Assembly (NCBI RefSeq): GCF_001957135.1
Contig: NZ_MPHK01000001.1
Coordinates: 124,001 to 188,000, forward strand
Source of the DNA: Shewanella sp. UCD-KL21
Lineage (GTDB): Bacteria > Pseudomonadota > Gammaproteobacteria > Enterobacterales > Shewanellaceae
DNA length: 64,000 bases
Direction: 5' to 3'
The notes beneath the pieces were generated by a model that made no database searches, was not told where the DNA came from, and saw only the letters and a program-made list of their open reading frames with translations. The position numbers and the translations under genes are program-made. Shown here one piece after another: positions 38,953 to 46,440 of the stretch. Position 1 is the first letter of the stretch, and each line of letters opens with the position of its first letter.

Positions 38953-39168
38953 ATGGAATTTTATTTTTCAATCTATGTAAGCTTTAATGATTTTCTGCCT
39001 TTTTATCAGGGCGTGGTAAAAAACGTTGAAGTTCGAGACCGTAACGGCAAAGTATTACATATTAATGGTAAGTATTTCAGACCATTTGTAACGGCTTCAG
39101 GCATCCATGGCAGTTTCATTTTACGCCTCAATACCTCAGGTAATTTCATTTCACTAAACAAGATTTAG
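38953..39168 (+). CDS. DUF2835 family small protein
   Basis: A 71-residue protein with the DUF2835 pattern: an aromatic-rich start (MEFYFSIYVSFNDFLPFY), then GKYFRPFVTASGIHGSF and a closing F-I-S-L-N. The family is widespread in marine gammaproteobacteria and its function is unknown. The upstream ATG-like starts in the frame fall inside the pepN terminator, so I chose the ATG at 38953. The ribosome-binding site is weak. Confidence 0.82.
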   Translation: MEFYFSIYVSFNDFLPFYQGVVKNVEVRDRNGKVLHINGKYFRPFVTASGIHGSFILRLNTSGNFISLNKI

Positions 39169-39482
39169 AGTATTTACTTCAAACGAGCGATTGATTAGAG
39201 GGTGTTAAATTAGCGAAAAATTATCACCTCTAACTTATTGAAAGTTAACAATTACATTTAATTTTTACTCGTTACTCATATATTTAAGCCATTCAATTCA
39301 AATTAGTCTGACTTTTTTTATCCATAAAATCACCTAACTGCACCAATTCATTCATAAATTTTCTTTTTTTTGAACTTGCCGAACCATGTTAATTGCTGTA
39401 ACAATGGTGTTGCCTGTAGGCTAACAAAATGTTGGTTTAAATCCTATAACAACGAATCCGGCAGGTTACGGAGAGAAGCATA
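39169..39482. other. Upstream region of the DUF1302-DUF1329 cluster
   Basis: About 310 AT-rich bases. A possible hairpin (around 39196-39204 with 39225-39233, TTAGAGGGTG against CACCTCTAA with one bulge) lies near the left end and might end the DUF2835 transcript. A GGAGAG ribosome-binding site sits just before 39483. No reading frame was recognised; the promoter of the four-gene cluster must lie here, but no operator was identified. Confidence 0.5.
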
Positions 39483-41534
39483 ATGAATATTGTTAAAAGA
39501 CGCTTTAACAAGTCGGCACTCGCTTTGGGGGTGGTGTCGGCATTAACTTTGGGGATGAGCAGTAGCGTTAATGCTGTTTCATTTGATTGGGGAGAAGTAC
39601 GTGGTACTTTCGATTCTACTTGGACTGTCGGAGCTAGCTGGCGTGTGTCTGATAGAGATTGGGAAGGACAGATCGGTAAGGTCAACCAACCTCAAATGGA
39701 TTGGTCTGGCTACTCAGCATTTGGCGCACCATTTGGCCAAACACCCATCTATAGCACGGCTCAAATTTGGGACCAAGCAGGTTCTTACTCAAGTAACAAC
39801 GATTTGAGTAACCTACTTTATTCGAAAGGGGATACTACCTCTGAACGTTTCAAAGGGTTACATGAACTGTCTCTAGAGTATAAAAACTTCGGCTTGTTTG
39901 TTCGTGGTATGTACTTCTACGATACTAAAATCAGCGATGGTGATTATGACTTTAATGACCCGCTAACTGGCAAAGAATTTGATCCATGTGAAGATAGCCG
40001 CGCATCAGAAGTGCAATGTAAAGACATTCGCTTATTAGATGCTTTTGTTTACGGTAACTTCGATTTAAATGATGGTAAAAACCCATTATCAGTGCGAGTA
40101 GGTAACCAAGTTGTATCTTGGGGGGAAAGTACCTTAATACCCCATGGTATTGGTGTGATTAACCCAGTCGATTTAAATATTCTTAATGCACCAGGTGCCG
40201 AGCTTAAAGAAGCATTCCGCCCGCAAGGCATGGTCTGGGCTTCATTAGGTCTAACTGAAAATTTAAACGTTGAAGCTTATTACCAATATGATTGGGAGCC
40301 AATTTGGGTACCAACACCAGGTTCTAACTTCGCGACAAACGATTTTGCCGGTTTTGGTGGTTATAGCCAAAATGCACAGTTAGGTTTTAATGCTAACCCT
40401 GATATTAACCTTGAATTCTTAATGTCTGAGTATGCTTCACTTTATGGTGCAGCAGCTGCAGCTAATTTTGACCCTGCATTTGCTGCTTATATGGTGCCAT
40501 ACGCAACTAAAGTTGCATTAATACAGGATGAAGAAGAGCCTGCAGATGATGGCCAATATGGTATCAAGCTAGGTTATTACGCGCCTAATTTCGGTGAAAC
40601 TGAATTTGGCTTGTATTACATGAATTATCATAGTCGCCGCCCTATCATCAGTGGTACAGCATCAAACTTTACCAGTGAAGCTGTGGCTCGTGATTATGGC
40701 CGTTTAGCTGCAAGTGGCGGTGAAATTGACCGCGAACTTATGCTGAGCATGGAAACATTTACTAAAGCTCAGATTGTTTATCCTGAAGATATTCAATTAT
40801 ATGGCGCAAGTTTTAACACTTTAGTGGGCGACACCTCAGTTGCCGGTGAAGTCTCTCATCGTATTGATGAGCCTTTACAAATTGATGATGTTGAATTGTT
40901 ATTTGCTGGTATGCCTGAGCAGCTTGCAAATGCTGGACTTCGTCCTGATCTAGAAGGCCTATCGCAAATCGAAGGTGTACAGCCTGGTGAGACTATTGAT
41001 GGTTTCATTTTATCTGATACCACTCAAGCTCAGTTCACCTTAACTCATTTATTTGGTCCAACTTGGGGGACTGATAATTTAGTCATGCTCGCTGAGGTTG
41101 GTGGTGTGTGGATCCATGACATGCCAGGCTTTGATGAGCTTCGTTTGAACGGGCCTGGAACTTCGCGTTCTGGTGGTAACCCTGATATGCCTGGCATTAT
41201 CGAAGCACTGCATGATGGCCCTGAAACTAATCCGTTCCCAACTGATTTTGCTTGGGGATATCGTTTAGTTGCCAAGGCTGACTTTAACAATGTCTTTGCC
41301 GGTGTGAATATGTCACCTCGGGTGATTTTCTCTCACGATGTTGACGGTATTACACCAGATCCAATGTTCTTATTCACTGAAGGGCGTAAGTCTGTGGCTG
41401 TTGGTCTAAACTTTGACTATCGCAGTCGCTGGGGGGCAGATGTGTCCTATAACAGCTTCTTTGGTGGCGTAGGCACAACTAATGCAATGACTGATAGAGA
41501 TTATGTCTCTTTCAACGTCAAGTATTCGATCTAA
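39483..41534 (+). CDS. DUF1302 family protein, putative outer-membrane beta-barrel
   Basis: A 683-residue exported protein. The signal peptide ends at about residue 31 (SSSVNA-VSFDWG). The mature protein is rich in alternating hydrophobic, aromatic and Gly residues (FDWGEVRGTFDSTWTVGASW) and ends in YVSFNVKYSI, consistent with an outer-membrane barrel. The motif VRVGNQVVSWGES is the kind of block shared by DUF1302 members. No enzymatic motif is seen. It is followed after 13 bases by the DUF1329 gene, then the YCF48-like and MMPL genes. Family membership is confident; the barrel topology and a channel or receptor role are inference. Confidence 0.88.
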   Translation: MNIVKRRFNKSALALGVVSALTLGMSSSVNAVSFDWGEVRGTFDSTWTVGASWRVSDRDWEGQIGKVNQPQMDWSGYSAFGAPFGQTPIYSTAQIWDQAGSYSSNNDLSNLLYSKGDTTSERFKGLHELSLEYKNFGLFVRGMYFYDTKISDGDYDFNDPLTGKEFDPCEDSRASEVQCKDIRLLDAFVYGNFDLNDGKNPLSVRVGNQVVSWGESTLIPHGIGVINPVDLNILNAPGAELKEAFRPQGMVWASLGLTENLNVEAYYQYDWEPIWVPTPGSNFATNDFAGFGGYSQNAQLGFNANPDINLEFLMSEYASLYGAAAAANFDPAFAAYMVPYATKVALIQDEEEPADDGQYGIKLGYYAPNFGETEFGLYYMNYHSRRPIISGTASNFTSEAVARDYGRLAASGGEIDRELMLSMETFTKAQIVYPEDIQLYGASFNTLVGDTSVAGEVSHRIDEPLQIDDVELLFAGMPEQLANAGLRPDLEGLSQIEGVQPGETIDGFILSDTTQAQFTLTHLFGPTWGTDNLVMLAEVGGVWIHDMPGFDELRLNGPGTSRSGGNPDMPGIIEALHDGPETNPFPTDFAWGYRLVAKADFNNVFAGVNMSPRVIFSHDVDGITPDPMFLFTEGRKSVAVGLNFDYRSRWGADVSYNSFFGGVGTTNAMTDRDYVSFNVKYSI

Positions 41535-41547
41535 AAGGATAATAATA

Positions 41548-42912
41548 ATGAAGAAACTGACGATATTATCGGCTGCTGTCATGTTATCGCTGACTGCACC
41601 AGTAGCGATGGCGAAAGTATCAGAAGCCGAAGCTGCCAAATTAGGTACTGAATTAACCCCTTTAGGGGCTGTTATGGCAGCTAATGCTGATGGCTCTATC
41701 CCTGCATGGGATAAGGGTATTACATCAGCACCAGCTGGATATGAGAAGGGCATGCACCACCCAGACCCTTTTCCAAGTGATAAAATACTGTTTACCATAA
41801 CCAATGCTAACAAAGCACAATACGCTGAGTTTTTAACACCGGGTCAGGTGAAGTTATTTGAGCTTTATCCAGATACTTACAAAATGAATGTCTATGAGAC
41901 TCGTCGTACTGCGTCTGTTCCTCAGTATGTTTACGATGCCACTAAAGCGAATGCGTTAAACGCTGAATTAGTCTCAAATGGTAATGGCGTGAGTGGGGCA
42001 TCTATTGGTGTGCCATTTCCTATCCCATCAAATGGTTTAGAGGTGATTTGGAACCATATCTTGCGTTATCGCGGGGTTGATGTGGAAACTTATCGTAGCC
42101 AAGCTTCACCAACAAAAAGTGGCTCTTACACCTTGATCGAAACAGCTGAAGAGATCCGTTTTGAATATAGCCGTCCAGAGATCACGCTAGATAAACTTGC
42201 TGAAACGAATACCTTGTTTTTCTTTAAACAAGTTGTACGTCAGCCTGCACGTCTTGCGGGTACTGCACTGTTAGTAAAAGAAACCATGGATCAAGAAGCA
42301 TTACCTCGTCAAGCATGGACTTACAACACTGGCCAACGCCGCGTTCGTAAAGCGCCAAATGTTGCTTTTGATACGCCGGGTACTGTTTCTGATGGTTTAA
42401 GAACTACAGATGATTTTGATATGTTTAACGGCTCACCAGTGCGTTATAACTGGGAACTCGTTGGTAAGAAAGAAGTTTATATTCCTTACAATGATTACAA
42501 ACTTCATTCTGATGCACTTGAATATGATCAAATCCTAAAGCCTGGTCACATCAATCCGGAATATGCTCGTTGGGAAAAACACCGTGTTTGGGAAGTAAAA
42601 GCAACCCTTAAAGAAGGTATGCGCCATATTTATAAAACCCGTGTTTTCTATATCGATGAAGATTCATGGCAAGTATCGTTAACCGATATGTATGATAACC
42701 GTGATGAGCTTTATCGTGTGGGTACAGCACATTCTATCAACTACTATGAAGTCCCGACTCATTGGAGTACGTTAGAAATTTTCCACGATTTACAATCTCG
42801 TCGCTACTTAGCAATGGGATTAGACAACGAAGGCCGCATGTATAATTTTGATGCCAAGCTTTCTGAAGCTAATTTCACACCTGATGCGCTGCGTCGCGCA
42901 GGTATTCGCTAA
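41548..42912 (+). CDS. DUF1329 family periplasmic protein (LolA/LolB-like fold expected)
   Basis: A 454-residue exported protein. From the ATG at 41548 (AGGA box nine bases upstream) it has a clean signal peptide, cleaved near PVAMA-KVS. The frame runs further upstream into DUF1302, but that part lacks a signal peptide. The DUF1329 family, as I recall, is grouped with LolA/LolB-type lipid-binding folds, which would suit a periplasmic carrier. DUF1302 and DUF1329 genes are regular neighbours in proteobacteria. Conserved-looking features are the mid-protein NTGQRRVRKAPNVAFDTP and DDFDMFNGSP. Confidence 0.88.
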   Translation: MKKLTILSAAVMLSLTAPVAMAKVSEAEAAKLGTELTPLGAVMAANADGSIPAWDKGITSAPAGYEKGMHHPDPFPSDKILFTITNANKAQYAEFLTPGQVKLFELYPDTYKMNVYETRRTASVPQYVYDATKANALNAELVSNGNGVSGASIGVPFPIPSNGLEVIWNHILRYRGVDVETYRSQASPTKSGSYTLIETAEEIRFEYSRPEITLDKLAETNTLFFFKQVVRQPARLAGTALLVKETMDQEALPRQAWTYNTGQRRVRKAPNVAFDTPGTVSDGLRTTDDFDMFNGSPVRYNWELVGKKEVYIPYNDYKLHSDALEYDQILKPGHINPEYARWEKHRVWEVKATLKEGMRHIYKTRVFYIDEDSWQVSLTDMYDNRDELYRVGTAHSINYYEVPTHWSTLEIFHDLQSRRYLAMGLDNEGRMYNFDAKLSEANFTPDALRRAGIR

Positions 42913-42961
42913 GACCGTTATGGGGCGCTCATGCGCCCCAGTTATTCTTAAGGAAGTTTGT

Positions 42962-43972
42962 ATGTCGTTTCGCACACTTCGCAATGTAGCCGTAATCAGC
43001 CTTAGCTGTTTTTTCAGTGTTGCATCCGCAAATGCTCAATTTGATCCACTCAGCGTTCAACTCCAACCCCTTGCTCAATCATCTTTAGTGTTAGATATTG
43101 CTAACGCTGGCGATAAGCTTGTTGCTGTGGGTGAACGTGGCCATGTATTAGTCAAACAACAACAATGGCAACAAGTGACTACGCCTGTTATCGCACACTT
43201 AACCAAAGTATTTTTCCTCGATGAGATGCAAGGTTGGGCCGTGGGTCACGATGCAACCATCATCCATACCCAAGACGGGGGTTCAACTTGGACCTTACAA
43301 TTTCAGTCATATGAAATTGAAAAGCCGTTATTAGATATTTTATTTTTTGATGATAAAAATGGCATTGCGGTAGGGGCATATGGCTTGTTTTATCGCACCG
43401 ATGATGGCGGTCAAAACTGGCAAGAAGAATTCCACGAAGAGCTTTTATTTGAAGAAGATATTGGCTATTTAGCGGATTTAAAAGCTGAAGATGAAGCGCT
43501 GTATTTATCTGAACGCGCCGCCTTACTACCGCATTTTAACCGCGTTATTCAATTAGCTGACAACAGTTTATTAATGGTTGGCGAACTGGGGTTAGTGGCC
43601 ACATCAATTGATAATGGTAAAACCTTTACTGCACATGAGTTTATTTATGACGGTTCAATGTTTAATGCCATTGAAACGGATAAAAATATCTTTTTGATGG
43701 GGCTACGCGGTCATGTTTTTGTTACCGATAAACAATTTTCACAATGGAGTGAAATCCAATTACCGGTTAAGTCAACAATACATAACGCTTATCTCAATAC
43801 AGATGGTTCACTTTACTTAGTTGGTAACGCAGGCATGATTATTGAACTCAATAATAAGCTTGAGGCCAAAGTCATAGCCCGCAGACAAGGTGAAAACATT
43901 GTTGCTGTAGCCAGTGATAATCAAGGGGAACTTTGGTTTGCAGGTACCAAAGGCTTATTCCAACTTAAGTAA
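42962..43972 (+). CDS. YCF48-like BNR-repeat beta-propeller, periplasmic
   Basis: A 336-residue exported protein with a signal peptide ending near SANA-QFDP. It contains repeated propeller blades of the photosystem II assembly factor YCF48/BNR type: GWAVGHDATIIHTQDGGSTW and GIAVGAYGLFYRTDDGGQNW. Later, more diverged copies are LMVGELGLVATSIDNGKTF and LVGNAGMIIELN. The organism is not photosynthetic, so this is an assembly or adaptor factor for the neighbouring envelope proteins. The ATG at 42962 has AAGGAAG six bases upstream. Frame upstream of it overlaps DUF1329 and is not used. Confidence 0.88.
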   Translation: MSFRTLRNVAVISLSCFFSVASANAQFDPLSVQLQPLAQSSLVLDIANAGDKLVAVGERGHVLVKQQQWQQVTTPVIAHLTKVFFLDEMQGWAVGHDATIIHTQDGGSTWTLQFQSYEIEKPLLDILFFDDKNGIAVGAYGLFYRTDDGGQNWQEEFHEELLFEEDIGYLADLKAEDEALYLSERAALLPHFNRVIQLADNSLLMVGELGLVATSIDNGKTFTAHEFIYDGSMFNAIETDKNIFLMGLRGHVFVTDKQFSQWSEIQLPVKSTIHNAYLNTDGSLYLVGNAGMIIELNNKLEAKVIARRQGENIVAVASDNQGELWFAGTKGLFQLK

Positions 43973-44036
43973 CCATCACTAATAGCCATCACACAATGAT
44001 AACTAAAATTAAAACAACAATAATAGGGCCGATAAG

Positions 44037-46391
44037 ATGTTAGAAAAACTGGTCAATGGATTTGAAAGTTACCTCTTTAGACACAGGATGTGGGTAATAT
44101 TTTCATTTATATTAATTACCTTCTTTCTAGGTTACCAAGCTAGCCACTTAAAAATGGATGCCGCTTTTAGTAAGAATATTCCGCTAAATCATGAATACAT
44201 GAAAACCTATACCAAGCATCAAAAAGATTTTGGTGGTGCCAATAGGATCATGGTGGCAGTAGAAGATACCAGTGGTAATATTTTTAACCCTGAGTATTTT
44301 GAAACCCTCAAAAATGTCCATGATCAACTCTTTTTCATTCCTGGGGTTGAGCGCTCTCAAGTTAAGTCATTGTATTCACCTTCGACTCGATTTACCGAAG
44401 TCGTTGAAGATGGTTTTGCTGGCGGGCCGGTTATTCCTGCTGACTTTCGTAATGATGAATATGGCTTAAATACTGTCAGAGACAATATCGAAAAAGCCGG
44501 TATTGTTGGCCGCTTAGTGTCCAATGATTATTCATCAGCGATGTTAACGGCGCAGTTAATGGAGTTTGTGGCAAAAACAGATGAAGAAATGGCCGCATCA
44601 GAAGGCGCTGAAAAGGACGTTACTTTTAAGCCGTTAAATACCATTCAATTTGCTCAGCAGCTTGAAAATGAATTACGTGCAAAATATGAAACCGATACCA
44701 TCAAAATCCATATTATTGGTTTTGCTAAGATGGCTGGTGATGTTGCTGAAGGCGCCAAGGGCGTACTGCTGTTTTTCTTGATTGCTATCGCAATCACAGC
44801 TGTGATGGTTTATTTATTTTCTAAGTCATTAATGCTGACGATTTTGCCTTTAGTATGCAGCTTAATTGCGGTGGTGTGGCAACTTGGATTGTTAACAGTA
44901 GTAGGCTTTGGTTTAGACCCAATGTCAATTCTTGTACCATTTTTGGTGTTTGCAATTGGCGTTAGCCATGGGGTTCAAATGATTAATGCGGTTAGACGCC
45001 GTGTTGGTGATGGACAAGCCACTAAAGCTGCCGCTGCATCCGCGTTTCGTAGCTTATTAGTGCCAGGTGGTATTGCATTATTATCAGACACCGTTGGCTT
45101 TTTAACCTTACTTGCAATCGATATTGGTATTATTAGAGAGTTAGCAATATCGGCATCATTAGGTGTTGCAGTTATTATTTTGACCAATTTGATTTTATTG
45201 CCACTGGTTATTTCTTACACCAAGATTAAACCGGTTAAAGAGAACCAAGCGCAAAAAGATAAAATTGAAGCAATTTGGCGCAGCCTATCTAAATTTGCCA
45301 CGCCTAAATATGCCGTCATTGTGCTGATTTGTACTGCACTGTTATATGCTTTTGGCTTGCAACAAGCCAGTAATATGAAAATTGGTGATCTCCAAGGCGG
45401 TGCGCCGGCCTTGCATTTAGATTCAAGATACAACCAAGATACTTTTTATATTACTGATAATTATTCAATTACCACTGATTATATGACGGTGATTGTTGAA
45501 GCAACCCCTGAAGCTTGTACTTATCATTCAATATTAGCTGAGATCGATCAATTCGAATGGATGGTAGCCAATACCCCCGGAGTTGAATCCACAGCCAGTT
45601 TAGCGTCAGTGGCTAAACAGGTGAATGCCGGCTTTAACGAAGGTAATCCTAAGTGGCAAATATTGCCAAGAACGACCGCAAGTTTAGTGCAAGCGGTAGG
45701 ACGAGTACCAACGACATCAGGTTTATTAAACGGTAATTGTTCGGTGATGCCTATTTTCTTATTTTTAAAAGATCATAAGGCTGAAACCATTGAAGTGGTG
45801 ATTGCTAAAGTCAAAGATGTGACAGAAAAGCTAAACACCGACACATTACAATTTAAATTAGCATCTGGCCCTGTTGGTGTCATGGCTGCGACTAACGAAG
45901 CTGTTAGTGAAGCGCAGTTACCTATGATGATTTATGTTTATGGCGCTGTATTTATCCTATGTTTAATTAGCTTCAAATCACTTAAAGCAACGGTAGCAGT
46001 GATTGTGCCGCTATATGTGGTGTCAACATTAGCGCAAGCATTAATGACTTGGCTTGATATCGGCCTTGCAGTGAGCACTTTACCTGTGATTGCATTAGGT
46101 GTTGGTATTGGTGTTGATTATGGTATTTATATTCTCTCTACCATGGCAGGCAAGCTCAACAATGGTATGGCGGTGCAGCAAGCCTATTTTGAAGCGTTAA
46201 TTGAGCGAGGCAGTGCGGTTATCTTTACCGGGCTGACTTTAGCCATTGGTGTGAGTACTTGGTTCTTTTCTGCGCTGAAATTCCAAATGGATATGGGAAT
46301 TTTGTTAACATTCATGTTTTTAGTGAATATGTTGGGAGCGATAATTATTTTGCCCGCATTATCGGCGGTTTTCTGGCGCAAACCTAAGTAA
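44037..46391 (+). CDS. MMPL/RND superfamily transporter (HAE3 type)
   Basis: A 784-residue inner-membrane transporter with the RND two-fold repeat: one helix, a large periplasmic loop and a five-helix bundle, twice. The first bundle is near residues 240-395 (LDPMSILVPFLVFAIGVSHG). The second is near 625-780 (VSTLPVIALGVGIGVDYGIYI), a sterol-sensing/MMPL-like signature. Such proteins export lipids or hydrophobic metabolites. No periplasmic adaptor (HlyD) or TolC gene is adjacent, and the preceding genes probably take those places. It ends the cluster at the terminator at 46411. Confidence 0.9.
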   Translation: MLEKLVNGFESYLFRHRMWVIFSFILITFFLGYQASHLKMDAAFSKNIPLNHEYMKTYTKHQKDFGGANRIMVAVEDTSGNIFNPEYFETLKNVHDQLFFIPGVERSQVKSLYSPSTRFTEVVEDGFAGGPVIPADFRNDEYGLNTVRDNIEKAGIVGRLVSNDYSSAMLTAQLMEFVAKTDEEMAASEGAEKDVTFKPLNTIQFAQQLENELRAKYETDTIKIHIIGFAKMAGDVAEGAKGVLLFFLIAIAITAVMVYLFSKSLMLTILPLVCSLIAVVWQLGLLTVVGFGLDPMSILVPFLVFAIGVSHGVQMINAVRRRVGDGQATKAAAASAFRSLLVPGGIALLSDTVGFLTLLAIDIGIIRELAISASLGVAVIILTNLILLPLVISYTKIKPVKENQAQKDKIEAIWRSLSKFATPKYAVIVLICTALLYAFGLQQASNMKIGDLQGGAPALHLDSRYNQDTFYITDNYSITTDYMTVIVEATPEACTYHSILAEIDQFEWMVANTPGVESTASLASVAKQVNAGFNEGNPKWQILPRTTASLVQAVGRVPTTSGLLNGNCSVMPIFLFLKDHKAETIEVVIAKVKDVTEKLNTDTLQFKLASGPVGVMAATNEAVSEAQLPMMIYVYGAVFILCLISFKSLKATVAVIVPLYVVSTLAQALMTWLDIGLAVSTLPVIALGVGIGVDYGIYILSTMAGKLNNGMAVQQAYFEALIERGSAVIFTGLTLAIGVSTWFFSALKFQMDMGILLTFMFLVNMLGAIIILPALSAVFWRKPK

Positions 46392-46410: not shown

Positions 46411-46440
46411 AAAGAGGAGCTTAGCTCCTCTTTTTTTTTG
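46411..46440 (+). terminator. Intrinsic terminator after the MMPL gene
   Basis: A 9-bp stem AAAGAGGAG / CTCCTCTTT with a short loop and a run of nine T residues, 20 bases after the stop. Confidence 0.93.

Follow-up and report, generated by a model that had tools for sequence, protein, structure and literature searches.

Gene sets that encode a DUF1302 protein, a DUF1329 protein, a YCF48-like protein and a pump of the RND superfamily have been reported from several bacteria. AmeABCD of Castellaniella defragrans (2018) consists of DUF1302, DUF1329, COG4447/YCF48-like and HAE3 RND proteins, and its deletion weakens growth on non-functionalised monoterpenes and lowers monoterpene tolerance (PMC6394551). 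In Pseudomonas putida, growth on Tween 20 requires PP_0765 (DUF1302), PP_0766 (DUF1329), PP_2018 and PP_2019; co-folding of the four proteins gave weak to strong contacts, with a strong contact between the pump PP_2019 and the periplasmic PP_2018, and the set was called a novel transport system (Foldy, 2024, PMC10866462). We assume that PP_2018 is the YCF48-like member. An acyl-CoA synthetase of P. putida is numbered PP_0763, near PP_0765 (PMC3538555). The highly expressed 'Nanopod' cluster of the benzene degrader ORM2a (2026) encodes porin-like, DUF1329, YCF48-related and MMPL proteins and has been suggested to move benzene (PMC13101534). Deletion of a DUF1329 gene in Delftia impairs growth on phenanthrene (cited in PMC13101534), and Delftia nanopods contain DUF1302 and DUF1329 proteins (PMC3110197). 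Here we analyzed a stretch of 64,000 nucleotides from Shewanella sp. UCD-KL21 (the window), in which positions 39483-46391 hold a cassette with the same four families in the order of AmeABCD. An earlier note on this DNA had considered the biochemistry of DUF1302-DUF1329 pairs little described, a view that the 2018, 2024 and 2026 reports do not support. The four-part set is not new, and the likely substrate class is what is added here. We see about an even chance that the cassette is an AmeABCD-type carrier acquiring long-chain fatty acids or lipid-derived acyl chains in this lineage.

All four open reading frames (ORFs) were confirmed on the forward strand, with intergenic gaps of 13, 49, and 64 bp. 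The DUF1302 gene (39483-41534) encodes 683 residues with a signal peptide (Pfam DUF1302, 6.6e-159) and is followed by the DUF1329 gene (41548-42912; 454 residues, signal peptide; DUF1329 1.7e-152, LolA_like 2.5e-8). The YCF48-like gene (42962-43972) encodes 336 residues with a signal peptide (PSII_BNR, 1.8e-17), and the HAE3/MMPL-type RND gene (44037-46391) encodes 784 residues (MMPL, 8.7e-25). The automatic ORF start of the YCF48-like gene is a TTG at 42848, whereas the ATG of the signal peptide lies at 42962; the protein was submitted to Pfam with one additional leading codon. The 3 signal peptides described earlier were again called by eye, and the predicted 12 or so membrane segments of the fourth protein agree with its 13 overlapping hydropathy peaks, which are consistent with 12 transmembrane (TM) segments. 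The host genome (4.6 Mb) yielded one DUF1329 match and one DUF1302 match in a genome search.

The cassette differs from its described counterparts in setting and composition. Ame lies in a monoterpene island and was read as an exporter (PMC6394551), whereas the window cassette lies between pepN and an NAD-glutamate dehydrogenase gene (gdhB) and has a weak PsrA-like site. The P. putida set occupies two loci, judging by the gene numbers, and is split where the window operon has a hairpin (PMC10866462). In the ORM2a cluster, which belongs to an anaerobic benzene context, the porin-like protein is not named DUF1302 in the text available and two extra genes lie inside (PMC13101534). Tripartite HAE1 pumps of the AcrAB-TolC type likewise combine an RND motor with periplasmic and outer-membrane partners; in the cassette, no HlyD-type adaptor or TolC-type Pfam match was found among the four proteins (E 0.1; the search covered these four proteins and not the remaining genome), a barrel replaces the trimeric tunnel, and a LolA-fold carrier is present. 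HpnN and BstABC contain HAE3-like RND proteins that move lipids. The RND protein of the cassette resembles them weakly and has different partners, and the position of the HpnN TM4 acid is occupied by Ser310.

The order DUF1302-DUF1329-YCF48-RND on one strand was found in 108 of 120 related loci, or 106 of 118 after removal of duplicate contigs (L035/L145 and L051/L124), so the arrangement is not due to chance; rare co-occurrence, which the earlier note had named as one of the results that would refute its reading, was not observed. The full-order loci include Alteromonadales as well as records labelled Deltaproteobacteria, Opitutaceae, and Nitrospirota. As named loci, the best 80 of 590 confirmed were used, and the unnamed loci were picked among strong DUF1329 matches; the linkage figure therefore applies to close relatives. 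Among the best 80, the closest DUF1329 proteins are those of Shewanella electrodiphila (92% identity) and S. metallivivens (88%). The order is incomplete in 12 loci: four are cut at contig ends (L064, L086, L127, and L133), DUF1302 follows DUF1329 in L045 (a short contig), L046, and L048, DUF1302 was not matched in L047, L070 has the DUF1302-DUF1329 pair alone, and L043, L044, and L117 have no partner close by. The pepN/gdhB setting is kept in 49 of 51 loci (L071-L119, L056, and L062), the exceptions being L086, which is cut by the contig end, and the unrelated L117. This set includes two unclassified gammaproteobacterial metagenome-assembled genomes (MAGs) with the same setting (L079 and L091). 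The constancy of the setting marks the cassette as long resident in the order rather than recently acquired as an island. In L117, a MAG labelled Flavobacterium sp. Ww433, the DUF1329 protein is 62% identical to that of the window and stands without partner genes and without the pepN/gdhB setting; its label or binning is doubtful.

Structure models support the trans-envelope carrier set that had been proposed, together with the strong co-occurrence. The AlphaFold2 model of the DUF1302 protein, built from 52 sequences, has a predicted local distance difference test score (pLDDT) of 88.9 and a predicted template modelling score of 0.86. OprD/Occ channels are its best matches in the PDB, reaching Z 23.5 over approximately 305 residues and aligning between residues 35 and 683. 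The protein is thus predicted to be an outer-membrane β-barrel, as suggested from the sequence, with barrel closure deduced from the OprD/Occ alignment; a soluble, non-barrel protein was not obtained. OprD/Occ channels import carboxylates. No match to PF03349 (FadL/Toluene_X) was found in this protein, for which DUF1302 is the sole Pfam family at E 0.1. The DUF1329 model (30 sequences, pLDDT 88.8) matches Porphyromonas gingivalis LolA3 with Z 20.8 over 233 residues, followed by 4z48 (Z 18.6), which is a DUF1329 crystal structure, and 3bk5 (Z 18.2). Foldseek matches ranged from E 3e-17 to 2e-14, and the structural matches are confined to residues 159-454. Consistent with the model, the LolA_like Pfam score is 34.2 bits against a cut-off of 30. 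The LolA/LolB-like fold named in the earlier note is thereby borne out, and the protein is predicted to be a LolA-fold, putative periplasmic carrier. No PDB chain was sequence-related to the DUF1302 or DUF1329 protein at E 1. A photosystem role for the YCF48-like protein was rejected, the Ycf48 equivalog model giving 73.9 bits against a cut-off of 326.

The best NCBIfam match of the RND protein is HAE3 (TIGR00921), with 160 bits over residues 15-776, below the cut-off of 351.9; HpnN and BstA profiles match weakly, far under the cut-offs of those models. In 106 RND sequences (the window and related loci, two duplicate contigs included), the TM4 motif S310-H311-x-x-Q314 is conserved at 99% at each of Ser310, His311, and Gln314, and the TM10 motif D694-Y695 at 100% and 99%, respectively. 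Ser310, which adjoins the nearly invariant His311, aligns with the acid that HpnN has in TM4. The conservation of TM4 Ser-His and TM10 Asp-Tyr suggests an asymmetric putative proton site, with the histidine beside the usual position of the TM4 acid, and we infer that this site relays protons.

The substrate class is suggested by the control regions of relatives. Fatty acid degradation is under PsrA control in Shewanella and other Gammaproteobacteria (PMC5343134, PMC3223726), and fadIJ of Shewanella has been published as a target of FadR. In Colwelliaceae, a PsrA-type box scoring 19.3-24.1 bits lies upstream of the cassette in 11 of 11 loci, and PsrA binding is predicted there from the sequence. 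The same upstream regions carry the FadR-type core TGGTCNGAC (11/11) and AAACRGTGGTCNGAC (11/11), with the complete palindrome TGGTCNGACCA in 10 of 11, L082 being without the final base. In all 11, an AAACN4GTTT palindrome with A/T-rich arms lies approximately 100 bp past this first palindrome. The first palindrome is considered FadR-like because its core is also found upstream of fadI in the host genome (FadI by NCBIfam, 892 bits against a cut-off of 712). The fuller FadR-type palindrome of the Colwelliaceae is absent from the window, where a weak remnant with the core GTCTGAC lies at 39301-39317 on the forward strand, a sequence for which no function is claimed. As a regulon marker, the strict FadR-type pattern RGTGGTCNGACCAY was discarded: in three Colwelliaceae genomes, the cassette was its sole match, once each. 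TTRGTCNGACYWA gave 2 sites in the host genome against 3-4 for the reversed control, neither of them at the cassette, and the relaxed FadR pattern gave 1 site in Colwellia psychrerythraea GAB14E (control 1) and 2 in the host genome (control 1), one of them at fadI.

The sites of the PsrA-type pattern TTNAAACN4GTTTNAA agree with the published PsrA control of fatty acid degradation. C. psychrerythraea GAB14E has 9 sites against 2 for the reversed control. Two of the 9 are intra-ORF; five of the other seven precede psrA, an acyl-CoA dehydrogenase gene, fadB, an alpha/beta hydrolase gene, and the cassette. A site before fadD overlaps the end of the preceding ORF, and another precedes a VolA/Pla-1 phospholipase gene that is divergent from yciK. 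The host genome has 7 sites against 1 in the control, at psrA, fadB, acyl-CoA dehydrogenase, FadE-type and alpha/beta hydrolase genes and near a chemotaxis receptor, with one intra-ORF (L182). In a third genome (G370), 10 sites were found against 4; five besides the cassette's own were inspected (one intra-ORF). A PsrA matrix was then built from 14 training sites, cassette sites excluded (training scores 19.4-24.8 bits). The 47 loci scored were L071-L119, of the pepN/gdhB setting, minus L086 and L117. In 25 of them, against 1.2 expected, the best matrix site of the whole locus fell within the 540 bp that precede the cassette, and 18 loci reached 11.9 bits in this region, compared with 13 such sites elsewhere in 998 kb. 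Among the scored unnamed loci, L062, from the order of the window, alone passes 11.9 bits upstream (23.3). In the window, the best PsrA-like position of the 64 kb is TTCAAACGAGCGATTGAT at 39178-39195 on the forward strand, 305 bp before DUF1302, with 11.96 bits and 10 of the 12 specified positions of the pattern. Its TTCAAAC is identical in six aligned Shewanella loci (the window and five others), amid poorly conserved sequence.

Neighboring genes in relatives point to the same substrate class. The 71 loci outside L071-L119 (69 distinct, two of them, L056 and L062, from the window's own order) were searched with five proteins from the regulon sites, and arbitrarily placed regions in genomes of the same set served as controls. 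At E 1e-15, homologues of FadD, FadB, VolA, or acyl-CoA dehydrogenase were found in 18 of the 71 loci against 3 of 40 control regions (p 0.017), and at E 1e-30 in 15 against 0 of 40 (p 0.0007). Neither duplicate contig pair has a match. With 20 control regions, the same queries gave 18/71 versus 2/20 (p 0.12) and 15/71 versus 0/20 (p 0.017), respectively; the earliest comparison (20/71 versus 2/20) used four queries picked after the neighbors were known. A VolA-related lipase gene lies directly 5′ of DUF1302 in L031, L032, L063, L069, and L135 (Nitrospirota), that of L032 being split across two reading frames and of the same family as that of L031. The two VolA-related neighbors run on NCBIfam scored 368 and 375 bits, slightly under the VolA cut-off of 384. 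In L123, L126, and L129 (Deltaproteobacteria labels, Desulfuromusa), the RND gene is immediately followed by acyl-CoA ligase, FadB-type, and thiolase genes, and a wax-ester-synthase gene lies 3′ of the cassette in L039. Among the 25 commonest Pfam families in each half of 261 neighbor proteins (those under 120 or over 900 residues excluded; L038 and L046 gave none), AMP-binding occurred 4 and 5 times in the two halves, Lipase_bact_N 3 times in the first, and 3HCDH, enoyl-CoA hydratase, and thiolase 4, 4, and 2 times in the second. One control region, L204, itself holds a VolA-type match and a second DUF1302 gene, linking the two again.

The earlier note had found no gene that would reveal the substrate. 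This stands inside the window; in relatives, the PsrA/FadR-type boxes and the lipase and β-oxidation neighbors point to fatty acids or acyl chains. Uptake is favored, as these control sites and neighbors tie the cassette to genes that degrade incoming substrate. In the proposed route, a lipase or an environmental source would supply the acyl chain, which the OprD/Occ-like barrel would pass across the outer membrane and the LolA-fold DUF1329 protein would shield in the periplasm. At the inner membrane, the RND protein with its docked YCF48 propeller would use proton energy to power the transfer, and an acyl-CoA ligase would trap the chain there. The parts, two of the four folds, the linkage, and the control boxes and catabolic neighbors of relatives are given by sequences and models; we infer the inward direction, the substrate in the host organism, the contact between carrier and pump, and the energy coupling. 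The logic is similar to that of NPC2/NPC1, a pair in which lipid passes from a soluble carrier to a membrane protein of the RND fold.

A number of results weigh against fatty acid uptake. The wiring to fatty acid genes is weakly visible in the window itself: the site at 11.96 bits is below every training site, and 12 of 20 shuffled windows contain an equally good one somewhere. The right half of the footprint in Shewanella is mostly GATTG, which is not a PsrA half-site, so the scores there are low; the best upstream scores of the three loci L071, L073, and L074 lie between 5.6 and 6.2 bits (5.6, 6.1, and 6.2 in rising order), and L111 reaches 11.7 bits. L072 (S. atlantica) reaches 18.1 bits, at −186, a different place. 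A different factor may bind the Shewanella footprint. No upstream site at 11.9 bits was found in 9 Pseudoalteromonas, 3 Alteromonas, and the scored named loci of L120-L149. For Pseudoalteromonas, this absence says little, given that the PsrA-type pattern has 1 and 5 sites in two genomes whereas its reversed control has 4 and 2, respectively. The binomial p for the matrix result (1e-27) should not be read literally since the loci are related, and p-values are overstated both by this non-independence and by the training set, in which some promoters, such as those of psrA and fadB, are represented by orthologues from two or more genomes. In the 49 loci L071-L119, no fad or lipase genes were found in the flanks examined. 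The barrel fold is no proof of substrate, and MOMP, AlgE, and chitoporin follow closely behind OprD/Occ (Z 19-21). The host genome also holds two PF03349 (FadL-type) proteins, both outside the cassette; the idea that DUF1302 substitutes for FadL in this genome was rejected on this ground. Bacterial RND pumps are normally exporters, and fatty-acid-responsive efflux would also explain the regulation.

Plasmid cassettes suggest a wider range of substrates. Of 42 plasmid records with a DUF1329 match, four were inspected and all four carry the four genes, in varying order: Vibrio alfacsensis and Cupriavidus have DUF1329 in first place, and in Cupriavidus the RND gene also precedes YCF48. Two of the four, those of Massilia sp. 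WG5 and V. alfacsensis, adjoin aromatic-type catabolic genes by annotation, which also counts against a dedicated fatty acid role, since a family with such neighbors is not fatty-acid-specific. The cassette looks like a module serving several hydrophobic growth substrates. DUF1329 genes were also seen on several Pseudomonas aeruginosa plasmids (records H2-H4, H7, H8, H18, H34, and H35).

The same plasmid neighbors, together with the usual direction of RND proteins, suit a pump that would clear toxic hydrophobic compounds out of the inner membrane or periplasm by way of the DUF1302 barrel, as put forward for AmeABCD. In that study, deletion slightly raises Nile Red accumulation in de-energized cells, and the authors propose export on the part of the system (PMC6394551). 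The Ame mutant also remains impaired at high limonene even with acetate, which fits export better than uptake. Its poor growth on monoterpenes as sole carbon source is, by contrast, relieved by acetate and is also explained by poor uptake (PMC6394551). Across the mutant reports, deletion harms growth on a hydrophobic carbon source; uptake accounts for this no less well than export does, and the PsrA/FadR-type control and the β-oxidation and lipase neighbors of relatives fit acquisition better. For the cassette studied here, we regard an export or tolerance pump as unlikely.

Less likely again, but like export a live rival, is efflux of fatty acids under fatty acid control, in which the cassette would protect the cell from detergent-like fatty acids freed by its own lipases. 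RND- and MFS-kind fatty acid efflux pumps exist, and the regulation and lipase neighbors would be the same as for uptake. Such a pump would be wasteful, however, if induced together with fadD and fadB. P. putida needs the genes on a fatty acid ester (PMC10866462), although protection from the detergent may be the reason there. Trafficking of the cell's own lipids between the membranes, as by HpnN or the sterol system BstABC, is more improbable still: the LolA fold of DUF1329, the weak HpnN/BstA matches, and the constant pepN/gdhB setting expected of a housekeeping role are outweighed by the catabolic regulation and neighbors in relatives and by the catabolic plasmid cassettes.

Acquisition of acyl chains would require an RND protein that works inward. 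We tentatively propose, at somewhat less than an even chance, a proton-driven uptake system in which the LolA-fold carrier runs from the OprD/Occ-like barrel to the Ser-His TM4 pump, a bacterial counterpart of NPC2/NPC1 that would take other hydrophobic substrates in other lineages. If so, the published 'efflux' phenotypes of AmeABCD would be uptake phenotypes, and one explanation would cover what has been published separately for monoterpenes, benzene, phenanthrene, and Tween. The marine Alteromonadales examined would have kept, at one locus, a second route made of four parts, among them a soluble carrier and an energized pump. The rule that bacterial RND proteins only export would also be challenged. 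In the literature searched, we found no paper joining this gene set with PsrA or fatty acid degradation; RegPrecise or Kazakov et al. 2009 may already list the PsrA assignment.

Transcription of the cassette may be divided. The four genes in one direction and their gaps of 13-64 bp were described correctly before, but the single terminator was not: besides the intrinsic terminator 3′ of the cassette (46411-46433, forward strand; 10-pair stem, then a T-run), a GC-rich hairpin of 8 pairs lies in the gap between DUF1329 and YCF48 (42921-42940, forward strand), without a clean T-run in the window. A stem of at least 9 pairs was found in this gap in 39 of 47 related loci against 3-6 of 47 in five shuffles, and 31 of the 39 have a T-rich 3′ flank (0-3 in shuffles). 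The folding z is −2 or lower in 43 of 47 loci. A looser count of at least 7 pairs finds hairpins in 47/47 loci, but also in 14-22/47 shuffles, and is thus partly due to chance. As the hairpin is above chance, the operon may have two expression halves, DUF1302-DUF1329 and YCF48-RND, and the barrel and carrier would then be made in more copies than the pump. The position of the hairpin matches the boundary at which the P. putida pairs carry separate gene numbers.

Other features were noted upstream of the cassette. A conserved leader or promoter block lies shortly 5′ of the DUF1302 start (39390-39476, forward strand), as seen in the alignment of six Shewanella upstream regions; no Rfam match was found in it at E 0.1. 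An RNA family in or before the cassette was rejected, the single sub-threshold Rfam match (E 0.078) lying within DUF1329. The block, likewise in L071-L074 and L111, holds an imperfect GTAACA-N4-TGTTAC-like dyad a short way ahead of the DUF1302 start. In seven Pseudoalteromonas loci (L093, L095, L096, L098, L108, L110, and L113), a palindrome like TGGTAAGACGTCTTACCA lies upstream of DUF1302, and this pattern occurs once per genome in the two Pseudoalteromonas genomes scanned. A small ORF at 38953-39165, which we take to be DUF2835-like, stops just 5′ of the PsrA-like site, and a related ORF is present in 39 of 51 loci.

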